A DNA stretch of 64,000 nucleotides from Rhodoferax sp. (lineage in GTDB: Bacteria > Pseudomonadota > Gammaproteobacteria > Burkholderiales > Burkholderiaceae_C): NCBI GenBank assembly GCA_031291305.1, contig JARLJH010000039.1, forward strand, positions 1-64,000, given 5' to 3'. Positions within the stretch are counted from its first letter, which is position 1, and each line of letters starts with the position of its first letter. The notes below the pieces were generated by a model. It made no database searches. It worked only from the letters and a program-made list of their open reading frames with translations, and was not told the origin of the DNA. The position numbers and the translations under genes were made by a program. Shown piece after piece: positions 1-11,067 of this stretch.

Positions 1-1001
1 ATAGCAGTGAGCACAAGGATCCATCGGTGATCTTCCCAAATCACGACCCATGGAACGCGCTCATCAAAAGGAGGCGTCCGCAGGGCTCGCATCAGCCGAT
101 CTACGGAGCGGTAGTCACCCGGGATGGTGAATCCGCTGATCCTTGCTGCCTTGGCAACTTCTCCGTCTTGCGGCATGGCGAGTACCGCACCGGCAATCTG
201 TCTTGAGATGCTCGGTGTTAGCCACGGCATGGCCGCAAGGGCCCACTGGGGATACAGGGCAGTGGACAGACTCAACGGGTAATCTGGCGTTTCATGTGGC
301 TTAATGACCTTGAGGTCTGAAAGAGAAATCTTCCCTTCCTGCGCCATCTGTTCGATCAGGCCGCTGCGGACAAAACCCGCATCCACGCGACCCGACAGGA
401 CGGCATCAATCACCGCGTCCTGCTGAACGGTTTGAACGAGATCAAAAGCGTTCGGCTCAATGCCAGCATTGAGCAATTCGAAGGCCTGCGCCTGATAACC
501 GCCCAGCGATTCGCGCGAACTGGCCGCGATTTTTTTGCCTTTCAAGTCGGCAATACCCCGTATCGTCTGGTTCTGCGACTTGACCACGATGACTCCACCA
601 AAACTGGTCAATGCGTAGCCCTGTTCAGATTCAACCAGGGTTGCCAAAGGTGAGTAGAGATTCTGCTTTACGGACAAGGCAACATAGTGTGCCGGTTGAG
701 TCAAAACAAGATCAACCCGCCGTTCTCGAACCGCTTGCTCAAGTTCCGGGTAGTCAAAGGCCTCAAGGACGACTCGATGCGTCGGAATTTGCTGAGCCAG
801 GTAATCGGCGAAGGGTTGCCAGCGTTTCAGTGTCTCGGGTTTTGGGCGAAATGCCAAGACACCAAAACGCAGCGCGGGACGCTCCACAACATTCAGTTGC
901 GTCAGCTCTGTGCTGGTCGCCATTGCATGGGACGCAAGAAACCAGATCAAGATGAGCAGGCTATTGCTGGCAATGAAAATACGAGACAGCAGCCATCGCA
1001 T
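1..1001 (-). CDS. PhnD-like periplasmic binding/sensor protein, 3' end cut by window edge
   Basis: An uninterrupted minus-strand frame runs from an ATG at 1001 to the window edge, giving 333 complete codons with no stop. The product has a hydrophobic N-terminal signal segment (residues about 5-29, ending near SHAMA), then a periplasmic phosphonate/phosphite-binding fold (PhnD/PF12974). Features include RFGVLAFRP at the domain start and the IADLKGKKIAASS segment. A second hydrophobic stretch (WVVIWEDHRWILVLTA) begins just before the edge, which suggests a membrane anchor followed by a cytoplasmic module such as a histidine kinase or diguanylate cyclase. The start is supported by AGGAG nine bases upstream of ATG. 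A free substrate-binding protein would normally end before a second membrane segment, so a membrane-bound sensor is my preferred reading. The output domain lies outside the window and the ligand is unknown. Confidence 0.8.
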   Translation of the reverse strand, partial: MRWLLSRIFIASNSLLILIWFLASHAMATSTELTQLNVVERPALRFGVLAFRPKPETLKRWQPFADYLAQQIPTHRVVLEAFDYPELEQAVRERRVDLVLTQPAHYVALSVKQNLYSPLATLVESEQGYALTSFGGVIVVKSQNQTIRGIADLKGKKIAASSRESLGGYQAQAFELLNAGIEPNAFDLVQTVQQDAVIDAVLSGRVDAGFVRSGLIEQMAQEGKISLSDLKVIKPHETPDYPLSLSTALYPQWALAAMPWLTPSISRQIAGAVLAMPQDGEVAKAARISGFTIPGDYRSVDRLMRALRTPPFDERVPWVVIWEDHRWILVLTA

Positions 1002-1524
1002 CAAAGCGATCTCCTGGAACTTTTCCGGTGATGAATATTCCTACCGAGAGACTGCACAGTCACCCCACTACGGATTCTGGCCAGTTGTCGTTCGGCCATC
1101 CCCCTCATCTCATCTCTCGCACTGGATGGCGCATCAGCCAGATGATCTTTCAAGGCCATTGACAAAAGCAATCAGGGGGTCCTCAGATCGCCCAGCCCAA
1201 CCACAAGCCTCTGCAGAGTGGATTTTCCAGGTTCGGCGTCCATAGGCTGACTATACCTGTTAGAACGTTTCCCAAACATCGACAACTACAGAAAGAGGCA
1301 CTGTGGACCTATCGCAGTGACACCCGGGTGTGCTCTGTGCGTCACCTCTCATTGCCTATGTCAATTCATAGGCAAACCTTTCTTAAGCCAGGTCGGCGAC
1401 TCGGTCTCAGACGCAAGAAATCAGGTTTGGCGTTCGCGGTGGCAAATACTGGCTGACTTCGCAAGAACAGATCAACCGGTTGCAGAGCCCAAAACCAATG
1501 AATTCCCCGGCGACAATCCACCTC
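1002..1524. other. Divergent intergenic region without a convincing gene
   Basis: This 523-base gap separates the minus-strand sensor gene from plus-strand trmL. Open frames exist here but none has a Shine-Dalgarno site, a recognisable domain or a family-like sequence. It should hold the promoters of both flanking genes. It contains one clear symmetrical element, listed separately at 1352-1375. The frame of trmL stays open upstream to about 1387, but that extension resembles nothing I know. Confidence 0.6.
1352..1375. promoter_or_regulatory. Perfect 9-bp inverted repeat, possible operator
   Basis: TTGCCTATG (1352-1360) and its exact complement CATAGGCAA (1367-1375) are separated by six bases. 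There is no long U-tract on either side, so an operator is more likely than a terminator. It lies 150 bases upstream of trmL and 350 bases upstream of the divergent sensor gene. The binding protein is unknown. Confidence 0.4.
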
Positions 1525-2022
1525 ATGTTTCACATTGTCCTGGTCGAGCCCGAAATCCCACCGAACACCGGTAACGTCATCCGTCTGGCGGCCAACACCG
1601 GTTGCACGCTGCATCTGGTGGAGCCGTTGGGGTTTTCCATGGATGACAAACACATGCGCCGCGCCGGGCTGGACTACCACGAGTACGCCACCGTCAAGCG
1701 CCACGCCGACTGGGCGGCGTTTCTGGCCGAAGAAAACCCACTCATCGACCGCCTGTTCGCACTGACGACGCGCGCCACACAGAACGTGTTCGACGCACGC
1801 TTTCAGCCGGGGGACTATCTGGTGTTTGGCTCGGAAACGAAAGGCCTGAGCGACGCGGTGCGCCAGTCTTTCACGCCTGCCACCGCCATCAAGTTGCCGA
1901 TGCTGGCCGGGCAACGCAGCCTGAATTTATCCAACGCCGTAGCCGTGACCGTGTTTGAGGCCTGGCGGCAAAACGGTTTTGGTTTACAAGAAAAAACCAC
2001 CCATAGCCCAGATAACACCTAG
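1525..2022 (+). CDS. trmL: tRNA (cytidine(34)-2'-O)-methyltransferase TrmL
   Basis: TrmL is a SPOUT-class enzyme that 2'-O-methylates the wobble base of tRNA-Leu isoacceptors using S-adenosylmethionine. The 165-residue product begins MFHIVLVEPEIPPNTGN, the usual family start, so I place the start at 1525. In-frame TTG (1480) and ATG (1498) codons upstream would add 15 or 9 non-conserved residues. Family motifs follow: NTGNVIRLAANTG near the N-terminus, FGSETKGLSD for SAM-knot binding, and RSLNLSNAVAVTVFEAWRQ near the C-terminus. No strong Shine-Dalgarno is visible for any start. The protein carries about 11 extra residues after GFGL compared with the relic copy at 10437-10548. That relic, about 8.4 kb downstream, suggests a recombination event in this gene. 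Confidence 0.93.
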   Translation: MFHIVLVEPEIPPNTGNVIRLAANTGCTLHLVEPLGFSMDDKHMRRAGLDYHEYATVKRHADWAAFLAEENPLIDRLFALTTRATQNVFDARFQPGDYLVFGSETKGLSDAVRQSFTPATAIKLPMLAGQRSLNLSNAVAVTVFEAWRQNGFGLQEKTTHSPDNT

Positions 2023-2155
2023 GCTTATAGCTCCATAAAAGAGAGCAACATCTCCGCCTGCTACAACGATCAGCTGTTGCGACATCGGACTCACCAAGTA
2101 TCCGATCCAAGGTGCGCGGCATGGAAATACTCTTATCAATTGGCGTGATGAGGTG

Positions 2156-2701
2156 CTAGCTGACCCGCTGCTTCTCCAGCTTGCGCGCGAGGGTTCTGCG
2201 ATGCATGCCCAGACGCCGCGCCGTCTCGGAAATATTGAACCCGGTTTGGGCCAACACTTCATGGATGCGCTCCCATTCCAGGGTTTTGATGGAGGTGGCA
2301 CGCTGGCTCAGCGCCACGCCAGCACAGCCTTCTCTGCTGGCAAAGGCGGCCTCAATATCGTCTGTATTGGAAGGTTTTGCCAGGTAGTGGCAGGCGCCCA
2401 GTTTGATCGCCTCAACGGCGGTGGCAATGCTGGCGAATCCGGTCAGTACCACAATGATCATCTCTGCATCGTGCCGGTGCAGGGCTTCTACGCAGGCCAG
2501 GCCCGAGGCCGCGCCATTGAGTTTGAGATCGACAACCGCGTAGTCGGGCTTGTGATCCTGCAACTGCGCCGTCACCTCGTCCAGACTGGCCGCATGGAGC
2601 ACTTCGTAACCGCGCCGCCCGAAGGAGCGCCCCAAGGCACGTGCGAAGGCGGCGTCGTCTTCGACGATCAGCAATTGGCGCTCCATGCTAGGGGTTTGCA
2701 T
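2156..2701 (-). CDS. regA: Redox response regulator RegA/PrrA/ActR family
   Basis: This 181-residue response regulator has a receiver domain with acidic pocket (LIVEDD), phosphoacceptor Asp in VVDLKL, and conserved Lys in LAKPS. It ends in a Fis-type helix-turn-helix with ISETARRLGMHRRTLARKL. This SETARRL-MHRRTL signature is the hallmark of the RegA/PrrA family, which switches respiratory and energy genes with oxygen or redox state. The frame overlaps the end of regB by 14 bases. An internal ATG at 2686, one base past the regB stop, would start directly at MERQLLIVEDD and is an equally good start. It lies downstream of cyoABCD and SURF1, so it plausibly controls the quinol oxidase beside it as well as distant targets. 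Confidence 0.92.
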   Translation of the reverse strand: MQTPSMERQLLIVEDDAAFARALGRSFGRRGYEVLHAASLDEVTAQLQDHKPDYAVVDLKLNGAASGLACVEALHRHDAEMIIVVLTGFASIATAVEAIKLGACHYLAKPSNTDDIEAAFASREGCAGVALSQRATSIKTLEWERIHEVLAQTGFNISETARRLGMHRRTLARKLEKQRVS

Positions 2702-4010
2702 CGGGCACGATTTTAAGAGCCGACAAAGGCAAGCTCAGTCGGACGATGGCGCCCCCTTCGGGACGGTTCTGGGCCGTCAAGCTTCCGCCCAGTGTTTTGG
2801 CCACATTGATAGACAGGAACAATCCCAAGCCGCCACCCGGGCGCCCTTTGCTGGACTGGTAAGGCCTGCCCAGTGTCGCCAGCATGTGCGGCGAAAAGCC
2901 CGGCCCCTGGTCGGTGACGGTCAGGGTCAGCCGCCCGTCCACACAAAGCGCTTCCAATCCAACCCATTGCGGTGAAGCCTCCAAAGCATTGTCCAGCACA
3001 TTGCAAATCATCTGCTGCAGGGTCGAGTCGCCCACGATGGCCAGCTCGACCTCGCCATGCGATGTGCAGTCAAAAACCACCACGGGGCGGCTACGACGCC
3101 AGTCCGAGACGATATGGTCCAGGAAGTCAGCCACGGTGGTTTTGACCGAGAACTCGCCACGGGTTTCACCCGCAGACTGCAGAATGTCGCTGACGATGCG
3201 TTTGCAACGCTTGACTTGCGCCTGCATTTCCACCATCTCTTGCAACAGCTCTGGGCTGTCGCGCAGCGCAGGCATGTACTGCCAATCACCCAGAATCACA
3301 TCCAGCGTCGCCAAGGGCGTCCCCAGTTCGTGGGCTGCACCGGAGGCCAACAAACCCATGCGCACAATATGTTCGTGCTCCGCAGCGCTTTGCCGCAAAT
3401 CAGCCAGATGCGCATCCCGCTCGCGCACATTACGGCTGATACGGGTGATCGAGGCCACCAGCAGCGTGGCGTTCAGCACAAAGCAAAGCAGCATGCCCTG
3501 AACGTAGTGGCTGCTCAGGCCCTTGTCGTGGTCCAACGGCAAATGCAGCGGTTGCGACAACATGGTCAGCCCGGCAAAACAGCTGACGGTGATGACCACC
3601 AGCATCCAGGTCCAGCGCGCTTTAAGCAGCATGGCCCCCAAAATCACTTGCAACAGGTACAGGAAGGCAAAGGGGTTGCTGCTTCCACCGCTGAGGTACA
3701 GCTGGGCTGTCAAGACGGCCACATCCACCAAGAGCGCCACAAATATCTCACGATCGGAAACCTGAGGCCGTTCCTGCCAGCGCAACTGGCTGCCAATGTT
3801 GAACGCCACCAGCAGGACCAGCATCTGCGCCATGTGTGGCAATGGCAAGGCCACGCCAAAACCCAACGTCACCACGGCGATGGTGACGATTTGCCCGACG
3901 ATGGCGATCCAACGCAACTGGATCAGTTGCCGCATGTTTTTGTGTCCTACGGCATCCCCCAGCAGCAGTGGGCCGCCAGCCGCACGCTTGCGCTCAAAGA
4001 TGTCTTGCAT
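2688..4010 (-). CDS. regB: Redox-sensing histidine kinase RegB/PrrB/ActS family
   Basis: The 440-residue membrane kinase has about six N-terminal transmembrane segments (roughly residues 30-185), a dimerisation H-box with phospho-His in HELGTPLATL, and a HATPase_c domain with N-box (VLDNALEAS), G1 (DQGPGF) and G2 (GGGLGLFL). Between membrane segments it carries GGSSNPF, matching the GGXXNPF heptapeptide known in RegB as the ubiquinone-sensing site. A single Cys in VKRCKRIVSDIL after the H-box is in the position expected for the redox-active cysteine of RegB (inference from memory of the family). The ATG at 4010 overlaps the SURF1 stop by 17 bases, indicating translational coupling. Partner: RegA, encoded directly downstream. 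Confidence 0.92.
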   Translation of the reverse strand: MQDIFERKRAAGGPLLLGDAVGHKNMRQLIQLRWIAIVGQIVTIAVVTLGFGVALPLPHMAQMLVLLVAFNIGSQLRWQERPQVSDREIFVALLVDVAVLTAQLYLSGGSSNPFAFLYLLQVILGAMLLKARWTWMLVVITVSCFAGLTMLSQPLHLPLDHDKGLSSHYVQGMLLCFVLNATLLVASITRISRNVRERDAHLADLRQSAAEHEHIVRMGLLASGAAHELGTPLATLDVILGDWQYMPALRDSPELLQEMVEMQAQVKRCKRIVSDILQSAGETRGEFSVKTTVADFLDHIVSDWRRSRPVVVFDCTSHGEVELAIVGDSTLQQMICNVLDNALEASPQWVGLEALCVDGRLTLTVTDQGPGFSPHMLATLGRPYQSSKGRPGGGLGLFLSINVAKTLGGSLTAQNRPEGGAIVRLSLPLSALKIVPDANP

Positions 4011-4812
4011 GCGTGTCGTCTTGATTCAAGTGAGGCAACTCCGAGTTATTGCGCACCCGTCGCGCGTCGCGCACCACCTTCCAGGTGGCCCCTGCCAGCA
4101 GCAACGCCAGGGTGTACCACGTCAGAGCATAGACCAGATGGTTGTTATGAAAGACCAGTACGGTCATTCCGGCAGCGGGCCACTGGGGCGTTGCCCCGGA
4201 CACCGCTTGCTGTGCGGGAGCCGCATCGGCGTCCATGAAATAGGGGGCAACGCCAGACAGAGCGTGCGCTGTGGCAATCGCCGGGACATCGCGCGAGTAC
4301 CAGCGGTTGCCGTTCGGGTCGTTGTGCCGCAAAAAACCACCACCCGGTTCGCTGAGGCGCAGCAGGCCGGTCACCACCACGCTGTCCGTCGAACTGGGCG
4401 CTTGTGCCAGTTGAGCATCCAGAGCGCTGCGCTGGTCGGTAGGGACGAAGCCTCGGTTGACCAGCAGAATGTGCCCGTCGTCCTCTCGCAAGGGCGTGAG
4501 CAGCCAGTAGCCGCCACCCAATTCGGTGACCGCCTGGACCCAGGTGGAGCGCCCTGCCATCCAGACACCCCGGGCACTGACATGCCGGTACTCGTAACCA
4601 GCCGCGTCAATGTGAGGCCACTGCGCAGGCCCAGGTGCGGGTGTTGCCACGGCGTGGACACGCTGCGCAATGCGCGCCATGAGATCAAGCTTCCAGCTGC
4701 GCCGCTGCAGCTGCCAGGTGCCCAGCGCGAACAGCCCCACAACCAGCGTTGCGGCCACACAGGCCAACAACACCCCGAGCAGGGGACGGCCCGACCGACT
4801 TGGCGTTGTCAC
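3994..4812 (-). CDS. SURF1-family oxidase assembly protein
   Basis: The product is a SURF1/Shy1-type inner-membrane protein that helps heme insertion during terminal-oxidase assembly. It shows the classical topology: an N-terminal membrane segment (LLGVLLACVAATLVVGLFAL) followed by GTWQLQRRSWK, a periplasmic domain with GGYWLLTPLR and LVNRGFVP, and a C-terminal membrane helix (LVYALTWYTLALLLAGA). The open frame extends upstream inside cyoD, but that part reads as out-of-frame cyoD. I place the start at a GTG (4812) just after the cyoD stop. A CTG at the cyoD stop with AGGA six bases upstream is an alternative. No ATG is available in the right place. Its position after cyoABCD argues that it serves the bo3 oxidase. 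Length is about 272 residues. Confidence 0.85.
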   Translation of the reverse strand: MTTPSRSGRPLLGVLLACVAATLVVGLFALGTWQLQRRSWKLDLMARIAQRVHAVATPAPGPAQWPHIDAAGYEYRHVSARGVWMAGRSTWVQAVTELGGGYWLLTPLREDDGHILLVNRGFVPTDQRSALDAQLAQAPSSTDSVVVTGLLRLSEPGGGFLRHNDPNGNRWYSRDVPAIATAHALSGVAPYFMDADAAPAQQAVSGATPQWPAAGMTVLVFHNNHLVYALTWYTLALLLAGATWKVVRDARRVRNNSELPHLNQDDTHARHL

Positions 4813-4829
4813 GGTAAGAGAGACATGCG

Positions 4830-5243
4830 TCAGGGCGCTTCCTGCATGCGGTGCGCTGCCGTGCCCACGGGCATCATGTTGGTGTTCAGGTGGTACATCA
4901 CCCAGATCGAACCGGAGAGCATGATGGCCAACACGGCGCCGGTAAAGATCAGCGCCAGCAGCGACCAGCCGCCCTCCACCTTGGGCCCCATGTGCAGGAA
5001 GTACACCATGTGCACCACAATCTGCACCGCAGCCAGCAACAAGATGACCGCCGCCGTGATACCCGGCGTGGGCAACACCTTGGCCATGACCAGCCAAAAC
5101 GGGATGGCTGTCAGGATCACCGACAGCAAGAAGCCCTGCACGTAACCCTTGACCGTGGCGTGATAGCCACCCGGATCGTCGTGGCCTGCGTCATGGCTGG
5201 TGTGTGCGTCGGCGTGGTGATCGCTATGTGGTTGTTGGCTCAT
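4830..5243 (-). CDS. cyoD: Cytochrome bo3 ubiquinol oxidase subunit IV
   Basis: CyoD is the small accessory membrane subunit of bo3 quinol oxidase and is needed for stable assembly of CyoB. The 137-residue protein begins [14 protein letters not shown], a His-rich N-terminus common in the family. Three transmembrane helices follow (about residues 33-55, 58-82 and 95-118), with the family segment [17 protein letters not shown]. The ATG at 5243 overlaps the cyoC stop in an ATGA tetrad, which fixes the start over longer in-frame extensions. It is the fourth gene of the cyo operon and is followed by SURF1. Confidence 0.93.
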
Positions 5244-5866
5244 GACAGCGTTCCCATCAGATAAACAAAAGTGAACACGCCAATCCAGACCACGTCCAAA
5301 AAGTGCCAGAACATGGACAAGCAGGTCAGGCGGCGTTTGTTGGCAGGCGTGAGGCCACCGCGGCCCACTTGCACCATCAAGGTCACCAGCCACACCGTGC
5401 CGAAAGTGACGTGCAGGCCATGGGTGCCCACCAGCGTGAAAAAGGACGACAAGAAGGCACTGCGTTGTGGACCGGAACCCTCATGGATCAGGTGTGCAAA
5501 CTCGGTCAGTTCCAGCGACAAAAAGCCCAGACCAAACAGGCCGGTGATGGCCAGCCAGATCAGCACATGGGTTTTCTTGCCCGCTTGCATGGCGATCATC
5601 GCCATGCCGTAGGTGATGGAAGAGAACAGCAGCAGCGCCGTATTGGTGGCCACCACGGGCAGGTCAAACAGGTCGGCGCCGGATGGCCCGGCCGCATAAC
5701 TGCGGCCCAGCACGGCATAGGTGGCAAACAGCACTGCGAAAAGCAGGCAGTCGCTCATCAGATAGATCCAGAACCCGAGCAAGGTGCCTTGCTGCGGATG
5801 GTGGCTTCCGTCGTCGTAAAAGCGCGGCGCGATGCCGCCGGGGGTGAAGTTGGTGGATGCAGTCAT
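5240..5866 (-). CDS. cyoC: Cytochrome bo3 ubiquinol oxidase subunit III
   Basis: CyoC is the five-helix subunit III of the heme-copper quinol oxidase. The 208-residue product starts [19 protein letters not shown], preceded by AGGAG eight bases upstream (ATG at 5866). An in-frame start 24 bases further upstream lacks this signal. Family features include [19 protein letters not shown] near the start, LELTEFAHL, the helix containing [14 protein letters not shown], and [18 protein letters not shown] at the C-terminus. The stop overlaps the cyoD start (ATGA). Short spacing to cyoB (20 bases) indicates one transcript. Confidence 0.95.
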
Positions 5867-5886
5867 GCGTGAATCTCCTGCGCCGC

Positions 5887-7890
5887 TCAAGCCAGGGCCG
5901 CAAGGGCCTGGGTGCGGGCGTTTTCTGTACGGGTCACTTGGTCAGCGGGGATGTGGAAGTCGCGCTTGTAGTTGAAGGTGTGCACGATGGCGCTCACCAA
6001 CACCGCTGCAAAAGACACAGCGGCAATCAACCACATTTGCCAGATCAAGGCGAAGCCCATCACGGTGCACAGGCCAGCAATCACCACGCCAGCGGCCGTG
6101 TTCTTGGGCATGTGAATGGACTGAAAGCCGCTCACCGGGCGCTGGTGGCCACGTGATTTCATGTCGTGCCAGGCATCGTTGTCATACACGATGGGGGTGA
6201 AGGCAAAGTTGTAATCCGGCGGTGGCGAAGAGGTCGACCATTCCAGCGTGCGCGCACCCCACGGGTCGCCGCTGTGATCCCGCAACTGCTCGCGGCGCAG
6301 GAAGCTCACGACCAACTGGATCAGGAAGCAGCCAATGCCCAGGGCAATCAGCGCTGCACCAAATGCAGCGACCTGGAACCAGATTTGCAACGATGGGTCT
6401 TCAAAGTGGCTCAAGCGGCGTGTCACCCCCATCAGCCCCAGGACATACAGCGGCATGAAGGCGAAGTAAAAGCCAACAAACCAGAACCAGAACGAGCACT
6501 TGCCCCAAAAAGCATCCAGCTTGTAGCCAAAAACCTTGGGAAACCAGTAATTGATGCCGGCAAAGGCCCCGAACACCACACCACCAATGATGACATTGTG
6601 GAAGTGGGCAATCAGGAACAGACTGTTGTGCAGCACAAAGTCAGCCGGTGGCACGGCCAGCAGCACACCGGTCATGCCGCCGATCACGAAGGTGATCATG
6701 AAGCCGATGGTCCACAGCATCGGCACGTCGAACTGAATGCGGCCACGGTACATGGTGAACAGCCAGTTGAACATCTTCGCCCCGGTGGGAATCGAGATGA
6801 TCATGGTGGTGATGCCAAAGAACGAGTTCACGCTGGCACCCGATCCCATGGTGAAGAAGTGGTGCAGCCACACCAGGTAAGACAGGACGGTGATCACTAC
6901 CGTTGCGTAGACCATGGAGGCATAGCCAAACAGCCTTTTGCGGCTGAAGGTGGAGACCACTTCCGAGAAGATGCCGAAAACCGGCAACACCAGGATGTAA
7001 ACCTCGGGGTGGCCCCAGATCCAGATCAGGTTGACGTACATCATGGCGTTGCCGCCCAAGTCAGCCGTGAAAAAGTTGGTGCCGACATAGCGGTCCAGCG
7101 ACAACAACACCAGCACGCCCGTCAGCACCGGGAAAGCGGCAACGATCAGCACATTGGTGCACAGCGACGTCCAGGTAAAGACCGGCATCTTCATCATCGT
7201 CATGCCCGGTGCGCGCATCTTGAGAATGGTGGCAATCAGATTGATGCCCGACAGCGTCGTCCCCACCCCTGCCAACTGCAAGGACCAGATGTAGTAGTCC
7301 ACCCCCACATCCGGACTTTGCAAGATGCCTGACAAAGGCGGGTAAGCCAGCCAGCCGGTGCGTGCGAACTCACCCACAAACAGCGAGAGCATCACCAGGA
7401 TGGCGCCGCTGACGGTCATCCAGAAGCTGAAGTTGTTGAGGAAGGGAAAAGCCACGTCACGGGCACCAATTTGCAGCGGAACCACGTAATTCATGAAGCC
7501 GGTCACCAGGGGCATGGCAACAAAGAAGATCATGATCACGCCGTGCGCGGTAAAGACTTGGTCGTAATGGTGGGGTGGCAGAAAACCCAGGTTGTCACCA
7601 AACGACAGCGCCTGTTGGCCGCGCATCATCAGTGCGTCGGCAAAGCCGCGCAGCATCATGATGATGCCCAGCACGATGTACATGACACCGATCCGCTTAT
7701 GGTCGATGCTGGTCACCCAGTTGCGCCAGAACGTGCCCCAGAGCTTGAAGTAAGTCACCGCCACCACGACGGCCAACCCACCGAGGGCGGCGAACACAAA
7801 AGTCCAGACAAGAATCGGCTCGTGCAATGGAATGGCCTCCCAGCTCAGGCGGCCGAGAAGGTTTTTGGTTAAATCGAGATGGTCGAACAT
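5887..7890 (-). CDS. cyoB: Cytochrome bo3 ubiquinol oxidase subunit I
   Basis: CyoB is the catalytic heme-copper subunit that reduces oxygen to water and pumps protons. The 667-residue length and about 15 hydrophobic helices match bo3 oxidases rather than the shorter cytochrome c oxidases. Visible motifs are [20 protein letters not shown], with the CuB His and the cross-linked Tyr of the active site and K-channel; [20 protein letters not shown] with the two further CuB histidines; and [15 protein letters not shown] with the heme ligand histidines. It lies between cyoA (3-base gap) and cyoC in the standard cyoABCD order. No cyoE (heme O synthase) is present in the window, so that gene must lie elsewhere. 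Confidence 0.97.
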
Positions 7891-7893
7891 GGT

Positions 7894-8955
7894 TCAGTGG
7901 CGTGTGACGTAGGGGGTTGCGGTATCAGAGCGTTCATTGAAGGCAAGGTCGTCTTTGGCAGTGCAGGACTGCGCCAGGACGTAGCGTCGGCCAGGTAGCT
8001 GCTGCGGCAGGTGGTTTCCCACCTCAAAGGTGGTCATACCCATGCCACCCAGTGAATCGATGGCCATCATCTGGCTCATGCACATCTTGCCCGGCTCCAC
8101 GCAGCGGTTGACCACGGCATCAAACAACTGCGCAAGCACCTTGGAAAAGTGTTGCACCGGTGCGTTGGCACTGGGCTGCTGCAGCCGCAGGTAATCGTCG
8201 CGACCCAGCGTGCCTGCAGTGGCCTGGGTCTGCTTTACCCATTGCGTGAAATCTGCGGCAGGCATGCCCTGGAACTTGAAGTGCATGCCAGAGAACCCGG
8301 CCCCACTGTAATTGGCGGAAAAGCCGCTGTAGATGCCTGGCTTGTTGATCACGGCGTGCAGCTGGGTCTCCATGCCCGGCATGGCGTAAATCTGCCCCGC
8401 CAGGGCAGGAATGTAGAAAGAATTCATCACCGTGGAGGCCGTGATCTTGAAGCGAATCGGCACATCCACAGGCACGGCCAGCTCGTTCACGCTGGCAATG
8501 CCCAGCTCGGGATAGATGAACAGCCACTTCCAATCCAGGGCCACCACTTCCACCGTCAGTGGCTGGGTGCCGGCGGGAATGGTGCGCTCGGCATCCAGCC
8601 TCTGCAGGGGTCGGTAGGGGTCCAGCGTGTGGGTGCTGATCCAGGTCAGCAATCCCAGAGCTATGACGATCAGAAGCGGCGCGCCCCAGATCACCAGCTC
8701 CAGCGAGGTTGAATGGTCCCAATCCGGTGTGTAGGTCGCACGATTGTTGTTTTGCCGGTAGCGCCAGGCAAAGAGCAGGGTCAGCACGATCACCGGCACG
8801 ATGATCAACAGCATCAGCAGCGTGGAAACAACAATCAAATGGGCTTGCTGTGATGCGATGTCACCTGAGGGGTGCATCACCACCATGTTGCACCCCCCCA
8901 AACAGGCGGTCAGGAAAAGAAGGAGCCGTCCGCGAAGACGCTGAAAAAGGATCAT
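7894..8955 (-). CDS. cyoA: Cytochrome bo3 ubiquinol oxidase subunit II
   Basis: CyoA is the membrane-anchored subunit II of quinol oxidase. It starts with a lipoprotein signal (FLTACLGGC, lipobox LGGC with Cys near residue 22), followed by two transmembrane helices (about 43-65 and 86-108). The periplasmic cupredoxin-like domain contains VEVVALDWKWLFIYPE, FYIPALAGQIYAMPGM and FSGMHFKFQGM. The Cys and His ligands of a CuA centre are absent there, which separates quinol from cytochrome c oxidases. A long C-terminal region contains a Cys-Met-rich VNRCVEPGKMCMSQMM stretch. It is the first gene of the operon and is divergent from the MFS gene at 9106. Confidence 0.95.
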   Translation of the reverse strand: MILFQRLRGRLLLFLTACLGGCNMVVMHPSGDIASQQAHLIVVSTLLMLLIIVPVIVLTLLFAWRYRQNNNRATYTPDWDHSTSLELVIWGAPLLIVIALGLLTWISTHTLDPYRPLQRLDAERTIPAGTQPLTVEVVALDWKWLFIYPELGIASVNELAVPVDVPIRFKITASTVMNSFYIPALAGQIYAMPGMETQLHAVINKPGIYSGFSANYSGAGFSGMHFKFQGMPAADFTQWVKQTQATAGTLGRDDYLRLQQPSANAPVQHFSKVLAQLFDAVVNRCVEPGKMCMSQMMAIDSLGGMGMTTFEVGNHLPQQLPGRRYVLAQSCTAKDDLAFNERSDTATPYVTRH

Positions 8956-9024
8956 GGGGAAAACCTAGGGGTTCACTGAGGTCAAAAGCGGCTAATCTAA
9001 CCGCTCCTATACCATTTGGCGATT

Positions 9025-9037
9025 GGACATATTGTCC
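9025..9037. promoter_or_regulatory. 13-bp palindrome in the cyoA/MFS divergent promoter region
   Basis: GGACA-TAT-TGTCC is a perfect inverted repeat in the 150-base region between the divergent cyoA and MFS start codons. On the minus strand it lies just downstream of TTGAAT and overlaps a weak TATGTC hexamer at 17-base spacing, so a bound protein could affect cyo transcription. It does not match the FNR/ANR consensus, and I could not find a clear RegA site. The regulator is unknown. Confidence 0.4.
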
Positions 9038-9105
9038 TAGGTCAATAAATTCAAAAAATATCTGGCGGTGTATGACCGACCCGGCAAAAAGAACGGAGAT
9101 GCAAC

Positions 9106-10428
9106 ATGATGACTGCCACAGCACCCCACAGCCTCAACACATACACCGCTGCCAATGTCGCCAACGAGGCACCACCCGTTGCCCCTGGAGACATCGCCAT
9201 CGGCGTGATCATTGGCAGAACATCCGAATATTTTGACTTTTTTGTCTACGGCATTGCGTCCGTACTGGTATTCCCGTCCGTATTCTTTCCATTTGCAGCC
9301 CGGCTGGAAGGCATGCTTCTGGCCTTTGCACTGTTTGCTCTGGCTTTTGTGGCTCGCCCCTTCGGCACCGTCACCTTCATGGCAATCCAGCGGCGGATGG
9401 GACGTGAAGCCAAGCTGACCATCGCCCTGTTTCTTCTGGGCGCATCGACGGCCGGCATCGCCTTCTTACCCACCTATGCCCATGTGGGGCTGGCCTCCAT
9501 CGTCCTGCTGGCGCTGTTTCGCATCGGCCAGGGCATCGCTCTGGGCGGCTCTTGGGACGGCTTGCCCTCGCTGCTGGCCCTGAACGCCCCGCCCGCACGG
9601 CGTGGCTGGTACGCCATGCTGGGACAACTCGGCGCTCCCATCGGATTCTTGCTGGCCGCCGGACTGTTTGCCTACCTGCTCACCGATATCAGCACGGAGG
9701 ACTTTCTGGACTGGGGCTGGCGCTACCCCTTTTACGTGGCATTTGCCATCAACGTCGTGGCCTTGTTTGCCCGTCTGCGTCTGGTGTCCACACCAGAATA
9801 TGCCAGACTGCTGGATGTCAACGAGTTGGAGCCCGCCAGTGTCGTCGAGGTGGTGCAGGCACAGGGCCGCAATGTGGTCATTGGTGCCTTGGCCGCTCTG
9901 GCCAGCTATGCGCTGTTTCATTTGGTCACCGTGTTCCCCTTGTCGTGGATCACCCTGCACGACGATCAATCGGCCAGCAACATCTTGTGGACGCAGATGG
10001 TGGGTGCAGCCCTGGCGATCGTCGGCATTGTGGCTTCCGGCCTGATTTCCGATCATTTCGGCAGACGCCGCACACTGGCTGCGCTGGCCATATTGATTGC
10101 GGTATTCAGCGGCGTGGCACCGACGCTTCTGGAGAATGGATGGGAGGGTCAGCGCCTTTTTATTTTGCTCGGCTTTGCGTTGCTGGGTCTGTCCTATGGC
10201 CAGGCCTCCGGTGCGGTGGCTGCCAACTTCCCGGCCAAGTACCGCTACACCGGCGCCGCCCTGACTTCAGACTTGGCCTGGCTGGCGGGTGCGGGTTTCG
10301 CACCCTTGGTGGTGCTGGGTTTGTCAGCGCACTTCGGGCTGGCTTATGTGGGTGTCTATCTGTTGTCGGGTGCACTGGGCACACTGGCGGCTTTAAGCAT
10401 CAACCGTGCGCTGGAGATTCGCGACTGA
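9106..10428 (+). CDS. MFS transporter, metabolite:H+ symporter (ProP/ShiA-like) family
   Basis: This 440-residue protein has about twelve hydrophobic helices, typical of the major facilitator superfamily. The N-terminal SEYFDFFVYGIASVLVFPSVFF segment is characteristic of the metabolite:H+ symporter subgroup (ProP, ShiA, citrate and dicarboxylate carriers). The loop motif between helices 8 and 9 is present as SGLISDHFGRRRT. The equivalent loop between helices 2 and 3 is altered (IQRRMGREAKL instead of GDRxGRK). The start has GGAG seven bases upstream of ATG. It is divergent from cyoA and may share regulation with it. The substrate cannot be deduced from sequence. A degraded piece of trmL starts 8 bases after its stop codon. 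Confidence 0.88.
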   Translation: MMTATAPHSLNTYTAANVANEAPPVAPGDIAIGVIIGRTSEYFDFFVYGIASVLVFPSVFFPFAARLEGMLLAFALFALAFVARPFGTVTFMAIQRRMGREAKLTIALFLLGASTAGIAFLPTYAHVGLASIVLLALFRIGQGIALGGSWDGLPSLLALNAPPARRGWYAMLGQLGAPIGFLLAAGLFAYLLTDISTEDFLDWGWRYPFYVAFAINVVALFARLRLVSTPEYARLLDVNELEPASVVEVVQAQGRNVVIGALAALASYALFHLVTVFPLSWITLHDDQSASNILWTQMVGAALAIVGIVASGLISDHFGRRRTLAALAILIAVFSGVAPTLLENGWEGQRLFILLGFALLGLSYGQASGAVAANFPAKYRYTGAALTSDLAWLAGAGFAPLVVLGLSAHFGLAYVGVYLLSGALGTLAALSINRALEIRD

Positions 10429-10436
10429 GTGTTCTA

Positions 10437-10548
10437 GGGCCGAGCGGTCTGGTGCGTCAGGCTTGCAGGCCAGCACAGCCTGAATTTGTCGAACGCGGTG
10501 GCAGTGACGGTGTTTGAGGCGTGGCGGCAGCGTGGCTTTGGTTTATAG
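10437..10548 (+). pseudogene. Degraded 3' stub of a second trmL copy
   Basis: From 10462 to 10548 the sequence encodes LAGQHSLNLSNAVAVTVFEAWRQRGFGL followed by a stop (shown here in pieces LAGQHSLNL, SNAVAVTVF, EAWRQRGFGL). It matches 26 of 28 residues at the TrmL C-terminus. By hand alignment, 17 of 84 bases differ from the intact trmL, nearly all at third codon positions. A weaker match (17 of 24 bases) to the preceding GLSDAVRQ codons occurs at 10437-10460, after which about 35 bases are missing relative to the gene. There is no start codon or upstream trmL sequence, since the MFS gene ends at 10428. It is therefore a relic, not a gene. The mostly synonymous differences suggest two separately evolved orthologues rather than a recent duplication. 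Confidence 0.88.
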
Positions 10549-10550
10549 GG

Positions 10551-10592
10551 AAAATTTGCCTCTAGCCCTTATAAACAAGGGGCTAGCAGCTC
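10551..10592 (-). repeat. Dispersed hairpin repeat, copy 1
   Basis: Read on the minus strand, AGCTGCTAGCCCCTTG...ATAAGGGCTAGAGGC is one of about ten related elements in the window. The core CTAGCCCTT...AAGGGGCTAG (plus strand) can fold into a hairpin. It lies between the trmL stub and the mutT stop codon, one base from the latter. Confidence 0.8.
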
Positions 10593-10593
10593 T

Positions 10594-11067
10594 TTAATAC
10601 AGAGCACCTATCCAACCAATGTCGGCAGCCAGCCATTGCAGCACTGGGATGGTGCCGGGCAATACAGGTCCAACCTTCACCGGAATTTGCTGCCAGGCAA
10701 AACTTTGCGCCTCGCGCATCTGCAGCTCGCCCGACCAGTCCAGCACCTTGCAAAAATGCAGCCGCACCAGGGCGTGCGGGTAGTCCACCAACTCGTCACG
10801 CCAGCGCTGAATCTGGCCGGTCTGGATACCAAGCTCTTCAAACAGTTCGCGCGCGAGAGCTTGCTCCACGGTTTCACCGGCCTCCAGCTTGCCGCCGGGA
10901 AATTCCCAGTAACCCGCGTAGACCTTGCCCTCTGGGCGCGAGGTCAGCAAAAAGTCGCCATTGGGTTGGATCAGCACCCCCACGGCCACATCGACCACCG
11001 GTCGGTTGGGACCACCTTCTCGTGCTTCGTGTCCATCAGCCACCAGAGGCTTGCGTGGTTCGGTCAT
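10594..11067 (-). CDS. mutT: MutT-type Nudix hydrolase (8-oxo-dGTP diphosphatase)
   Basis: The 157-residue protein contains a full Nudix box, GGKLEAGETVEQALARELFEELGI in outline (G-x5-E-x7-R-E-x2-E-E-x-G at residues about 52-74). Upstream of it VYAGYWEFPG is typical of MutT enzymes, which remove mutagenic 8-oxo-dGTP from the nucleotide pool. ATG at 11067 overlaps the stop of the upstream DUF815 ATPase gene as ATGA, which favours it over an in-frame start 27 bases upstream. It is the last gene of an argJ-DUF815-mutT run, an arrangement I recognise from Burkholderiales. Substrate specificity is inferred from family resemblance only. Confidence 0.9.
   Translation of the reverse strand: MTEPRKPLVADGHEAREGGPNRPVVDVAVGVLIQPNGDFLLTSRPEGKVYAGYWEFPGGKLEAGETVEQALARELFEELGIQTGQIQRWRDELVDYPHALVRLHFCKVLDWSGELQMREAQSFAWQQIPVKVGPVLPGTIPVLQWLAADIGWIGALY

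Follow-up and report, generated by a model that had tools for sequence, protein, structure and literature searches.

Several of the parts found at the locus described here have counterparts in characterized systems. In Proteobacteria, divergent YhjE-like genes of the major facilitator superfamily (MFS) adjoin cyoABCD, mostly in the opposite orientation, and E. coli yhjE is required for an active bo3 oxidase, according to PMC10588857. A SURF1 protein of Paracoccus denitrificans, Surf1q, has been tied to a quinol oxidase, ba3 (PMC9145763), and the RegR and PrrA motifs, as quoted in PMC5506826, have half-sites five bases apart. The locus belongs to Rhodoferax sp. (assembly GCA_031291305.1), and we analysed it within the first 64,000 nucleotides of contig JARLJH010000039.1 (C1), hereafter the window. 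It consists of a regA-regB-SURF1-cyoDCBA block and an MFS gene, bracketed by an intact trmL gene and a trmL 3' stub.

In the window, cyoABCD and the divergent MFS gene are ordered and oriented as in the systems of PMC10588857, a likeness drawn from gene arrangement, not from YhjE sequence. Unlike the arrangement described there, the module here includes regA, regB and SURF1. The SURF1 gene goes with a quinol oxidase, as Surf1q does in Paracoccus (ba3 in that case), although the organism is another one and the window's protein a predicted one. The RegB/RegA, PrrB/PrrA and RegS/RegR systems supply the best NCBIfam models for the window's two regulatory proteins, though the scores fall under curated cut-offs. 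A palindrome in the window has the half-site layout of those systems, GRC-N5-GNC, and its GAC-N5-GTC core fits the RegR/PrrA motifs as quoted in PMC5506826.

What the locus shows is the scar that the acquisition of an oxidase module left behind, an event of a known kind and fairly ordinary as gene acquisitions go. With it, the point at which a respiratory module was inserted can be given to the base. It also corrects how such a scar is to be read, in that one can tell from a diverged gene tail that two lineages came together, but not which of the copies is the foreign one.

Gain of an oxidase module at the trmL-mutT junction

A DNA search of the assembly with trmL returned two places, the gene itself (1525..2022, plus strand, 165 amino acids) and 10461-10554 (79% identity over 94 bases, E 1.4e-15). 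The original prediction had proposed just such a pair bracketing the block, with the stub at 10437-10548. The trmL tail at that place is real, but its start lies further in. Across 10428-10470 the best trmL match scores 21, within the range of shuffles (median 20, 95% point 25), so homology begins near 10461-10468, and a longer stub with an internal deletion is rejected on the same ground. At the other end, homology to the junction of relatives runs on past 10548, across a terminator-like repeat (10549..10593, the same as at the relatives' junction) and into a mutT-like Nudix hydrolase gene (10594..11064, minus strand). The stub itself (10461..10548, plus strand) comprises the final 26-29 codons of trmL and the stop.

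A trmL match occurs in 82 genus genomes, and we examined the trmL loci of 38 of them. In eight of these (G151, G153, G161, G174, G183, G188, G198 and G220) trmL is followed directly by mutT, with nothing between the two genes. In an rpoB tree the window genome falls in a clade with G150, G151, G153, G174, G183, G188 and G220 (support 99/99), and the direct junction occurs in six of these seven clade mates, the seventh, G150, having a gene for an enoyl-CoA hydratase behind its trmL. The stub-terminator-mutT stretch of the window aligns unbroken to the junction of the six, at 79-82% identity. Since the match to that junction is continuous through stub, terminator and mutT, the stub is a trmL end that sits in the ancestral place, as had been proposed, and because trmL adjoins mutT in relatives without the cyo block, the block was inserted at this site. 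The flanks of the block (2023-2160 and 10425-10470) had no match at any other locus compared.

We then asked how the oxidase is distributed. CyoB matches at E <= 1e-280 occur in 124 of 399 sampled family genomes and in 50 of 141 genera, and of the 88 other genus genomes just two have CyoB at >=60% identity (G179, 78%; G164, 61%), with no such match in any of the seven clade mates. The cyo oxidase is thus common in the family and rare in the genus. A CyoB tree with 112 rows places the window protein beside that of Ideonella azotifigens, outside the genus (Shimodaira-Hasegawa-like approximate likelihood ratio test support, 94), and the G179 protein beside a Variovorax (99). The cyo loci that we compared number 82, namely 80 named loci plus G164 and G179, some of them cut by contig ends; the full eight-gene module is present in 52 of the 82 and an MFS gene in 79. 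Among plasmid records, 149 match parts of the module, and none of them spans 80% of the block.

Close relatives lack the oxidase block although the site itself is intact in them, which marks the block as horizontally acquired. On this point, and on the gene content of the block, the original prediction holds. G164 was considered as an older relative with the same gene order and rejected, its cyo genes being of another type (CyoB 61%). Its cluster near trmL (L112 882-6602), in which trmL is separated from cyoD by a MaoC gene and a UbiA-family gene of cyoE type, is an independent oxidase cluster and not the window's block.

Two trmL ends and the direction of the exchange

Between stub and intact gene, 63 of 78 bases are identical (10468-10545). 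Thirteen of the 26 codons differ, 11 of them synonymously, and 24 of 26 residues are the same, in agreement with an earlier hand alignment that gave 17 differences in 84 bases and 26 of 28 residues the same. The two amino-acid changes in the stub, R131H and N150R, both hit sites that do not vary among the nine relatives compared, which is what a dead remnant would be expected to show. Over 66 nt of the tail, stub and trmL are 79% identical, below every one of the 28 species pairs among the eight clade species (82-98%). This low identity, together with the synonymous pattern, excludes a recent copy; judging from these alignments, the two tails look like orthologues from two lineages, which is what had been suggested.

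We consider it probable that a complete bo3 module was acquired in the lineage of the window genome and joined into the trmL-mutT junction, leaving two trmL 3' ends from two lineages of one clade. One end would be that of the working gene and the other the stub before mutT. The likeliest route, in our judgement, would be recombination with DNA of a congener already carrying the module just behind its trmL, because such a donor needs no broken gene. Homologous exchange would have occurred on the trmL side, and on the mutT side the end would have been joined inside the resident trmL with little or no homology. In transformation, homology-facilitated illegitimate recombination combines homology on one side with little or none on the other, and would yield a joint of this kind. 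The joint in the window is of a form that such a process could leave, whichever the direction of the event.

A number of results weigh against this account. In the CyoB tree, constraining the window and G179 proteins together was not rejected (p 0.166). The G+C content of the block, 59.7%, lies within that of the host stretches (53.3-61.1%), and 8 of 65 host stretches are at least as deviant in tetranucleotides, against a reference that includes the 65 host stretches and excludes the block, a bias that works against the block. Since its composition is not outlying, the block carries no date, and the expectation that the scar would date the acquisition is not sustained. In the trmL trees, the sisterhood of stub and intact trmL was not rejected (approximately unbiased (AU) test, p 0.285), so a tree that sets the stub apart, as anticipated, does so without rejecting the alternative. 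Placement from the tail only is weak, in that the G153 and G150 tails themselves have their nearest rows outside the clade, and gene trees within the clade disagree: secA groups the genome with G220 (100/99), rpoB with G150, G153 and G220. Finally, trmL was found in the flanks of none of the 80 named cyo loci, leaving no donor pairing, and trmL and cyo lie within 30 kb on one contig in none of the 41 family genomes with both placed (tables read by eye; contig ends may hide some cases).

These last surveys mean that a single-donor event requires an unsampled congener with the module behind trmL. The original prediction had gone further, taking the intact trmL to be foreign and to have arrived with the cyo block. 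The data do not establish that claim. In its favour, the stub sits in the ancestral junction; against it, the cyo flanks are empty of trmL and the distance of intact trmL to its clade mates is as rpoB predicts (z 0.46 to 1.98, seven mates). Thus, the observation that opened this analysis is confirmed, and the interpretation placed on it is partly supported.

The same event could also have run in the opposite direction. Intact trmL would then be the resident, and a relative of the G188/G151 group would have supplied the module together with mutT and the end of a trmL, the homologous joining having taken place on the mutT side. We regard this as unlikely, though it has more in its favour than the remaining alternatives. 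In the trmL tree (78 nt of stub), the stub nests in a clade of G188, G174, G151 and G183 (99/98), whereas the rpoB tree places the window genome outside that clade (98/95). Intact trmL fell beside G153, G150 and G160 without further resolution and, when forced into the G188/G174/G151/G183 clade, was weakly rejected (p 0.0447); its GFGLQ(E/D)K end resembles that of G153. The window mutT is closest to those of G183, G151, G174 and G188 (84-86%) and less close to those of G153 and G220 (80-81%). However, the exclusion of the intact gene from the G188 clade is lost when the trmL body is taken alone (p 0.156), and so is the link of the stub to that clade when mutT is added to it (597 nt; p 0.367, compared with p 0.494 for a grouping with G153 and G220). 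A reversed event would, moreover, need a donor with a broken trmL tail already beside the module. An apparent mosaic within trmL was also considered. The first ~180 nt are close to those of relatives and identity falls beyond them, but relatives show the same fall among themselves, so there is no mosaic.

A third possibility, quite improbable in our estimate, is an old duplicate: trmL was once present twice in the lineage, one copy shrank to its tail, and the module settled between them. The unrejected sisterhood of stub and trmL would allow for this. However, the changes are nearly all synonymous, which indicates that both tails were long under selection, and the tails differ more than those of any species pair in the clade. 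A second tail is also rare. Among the 399 family genomes, two tail matches at E <= 1e-5 were found only in the window genome and in G098, where the second tail sits at a contig end and could be either a gene cut off there or a stub. A second tail in G218 was discounted, as it lies at the end of a 3961-base contig.

Ranking lower again is the idea that the trmL tail and terminator form a direct repeat left by a circular or integrase-borne element entering at the 3' end of trmL. The repeat is indeed present at both ends, and five clade mates have variable insertions between comF and trmL (gaps of 260 to 3099 nt). Yet open reading frame and Pfam results for the block include no integrase, transposase or relaxase, the repeats are just 79% identical, and the trmL-mutT junction is insert-free in all eight relatives that have it. 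An assembly or contamination artefact, with C1 joining two genomes near 10461, would be in keeping with the position of the window at a contig start and with the listed contamination of 1.43%, but is very improbable: the assembly (completeness 99.99%) has one comF and one full trmL, contains no remaining 5' portion of another trmL, and has 80 identical bases where C12 and C1 overlap.

Function of the module and a candidate operator

All four Cyo subunits score above their curated NCBIfam cut-offs, which identifies the module as encoding a quinol oxidase, cytochrome bo3. The genes lie on the minus strand in the order cyoD (4830..5243; 109.9 bits against a TIGR02847 cut-off of 81.45), cyoC (5240..5863; TIGR02842, 274.1 against 223.75), cyoB (5887..7890; TIGR02843, 1118.5 against 1020.35) and cyoA (7894..8955; TIGR01433, 337.2 against 266.2). 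The enzyme would serve as an alternative oxidase taking electrons from quinol. Its assembly would be aided by the product of the SURF1 family gene (3994..4830, minus strand; Pfam and NCBIfam) and by that of the MFS gene (9106..10428, plus strand, divergent from cyoA), a transporter of metabolite/H+ symporter type. There is no cyoE in the block. The sole gene of the assembly above the cyoE/ctaB cut-off is at C19:29375-30217, beside the resident aa3 genes, and heme O would be supplied by this resident ctaB.

At lower coordinates in the block are regA (2156..2701, minus strand), encoding a response regulator with a Fis-type helix-turn-helix, and regB (2688..4010, minus strand), encoding a histidine kinase. 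Their top NCBIfam models are ActR/PrrA/RegA and ActS/PrrB/RegB, respectively. Both score below the equivalog cut-offs (161.8 of 250 bits and 236.2 of 350), yet these families are the best match of each, and hence we call the proteins RegA/RegB-like. They may sense redox state and probably act at the 13-bp palindrome GGACATATTGTCC (9025..9037), which lies between cyoA and the MFS gene.

To assess this palindrome, we counted GGAC-N5-GTCC between cyoA and the MFS gene in the 73 loci with usable flanks. Within real intergenic limits, it is present in 50 of the 52 loci that have regA and in 2 of the 21 that lack it (the exceptions are L143, L198, L197 and L203); with fixed coordinates, the respective counts were 43 of 47 and 2 of 20. 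As a control, the motif occurs in 9 of 1264 stretches of 650 bases. The window has three sites, compared to 0.88 expected. One caveat here is that counting by lineage leaves only two independent pairs on well-supported branches (sign test p 0.5), and hence the link between palindrome and regA is one of raw counts across related loci. The exact string GGACAAAATGTCC, searched in one spelling only, was not found in the literature searched.

The pattern suggests that GGACATATTGTCC is likely the operator of the module's own RegA. A broader reading, to which we give even chances, is that of a portable self-regulated respiratory cassette, one that would take a RegA/RegB-like switch of its own and a dedicated operator, GGAC-N5-GTCC, along when it passes from lineage to lineage, with operator and regA kept or lost together. 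If so, the module would be under redox control immediately in a new host. The conserved palindrome offers a simple, direct test of how a mobile oxidase is regulated there.

Neighbouring genes and flanking sequences

The product of the intact trmL gene matches Pfam SpoU_methylase, and its top NCBIfam models are TrmL, both slightly under curated cut-offs. It has a C-terminal extension past the GFGL end, as do the proteins of G153 and G150. The DNA of the first ~180 nt of trmL (1525-1705) is far more conserved between species than the remainder, synonymous sites included. The interval behind the gene (2023..2155) begins with a terminator-like repeat, to ~2046, followed by unique DNA up to regA; a mutT remnant in this position was rejected, as the match was not above shuffles and the interval is without mutT homology. 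The repeat after the stub, traced to 10549-10605, is one of many dispersed copies in the genus. Beyond it, mutT is the first gene of a conserved mutT-DUF815-argJ-secA neighbourhood.

The assembly comprises 69 contigs, and the window starts at the beginning of C1. The overlap between the starts of C12 and C1 falls inside a phosphonate-binding/PAS/GGDEF/EAL gene (window 1-1005; C12 1-1870, L223), and comF is at C12:1895-2605. Read across this overlap, the order is comF, the phosphonate-binding/PAS/GGDEF/EAL gene, trmL, module, stub and mutT; that is, the comF-trmL-mutT order is retained in the window genome. The comF-trmL interval is an insertion-prone spot. The mates with gaps of 260 to 3099 nt here are G151, G174, G183, G188 and G220, and in many other genus loci the gap is <60 nt. 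Of the 38 genus loci, 26 have ctaD at a distance of 2.9-8 kb upstream from trmL; the window genome carries ctaD on C19 and comF on C12.

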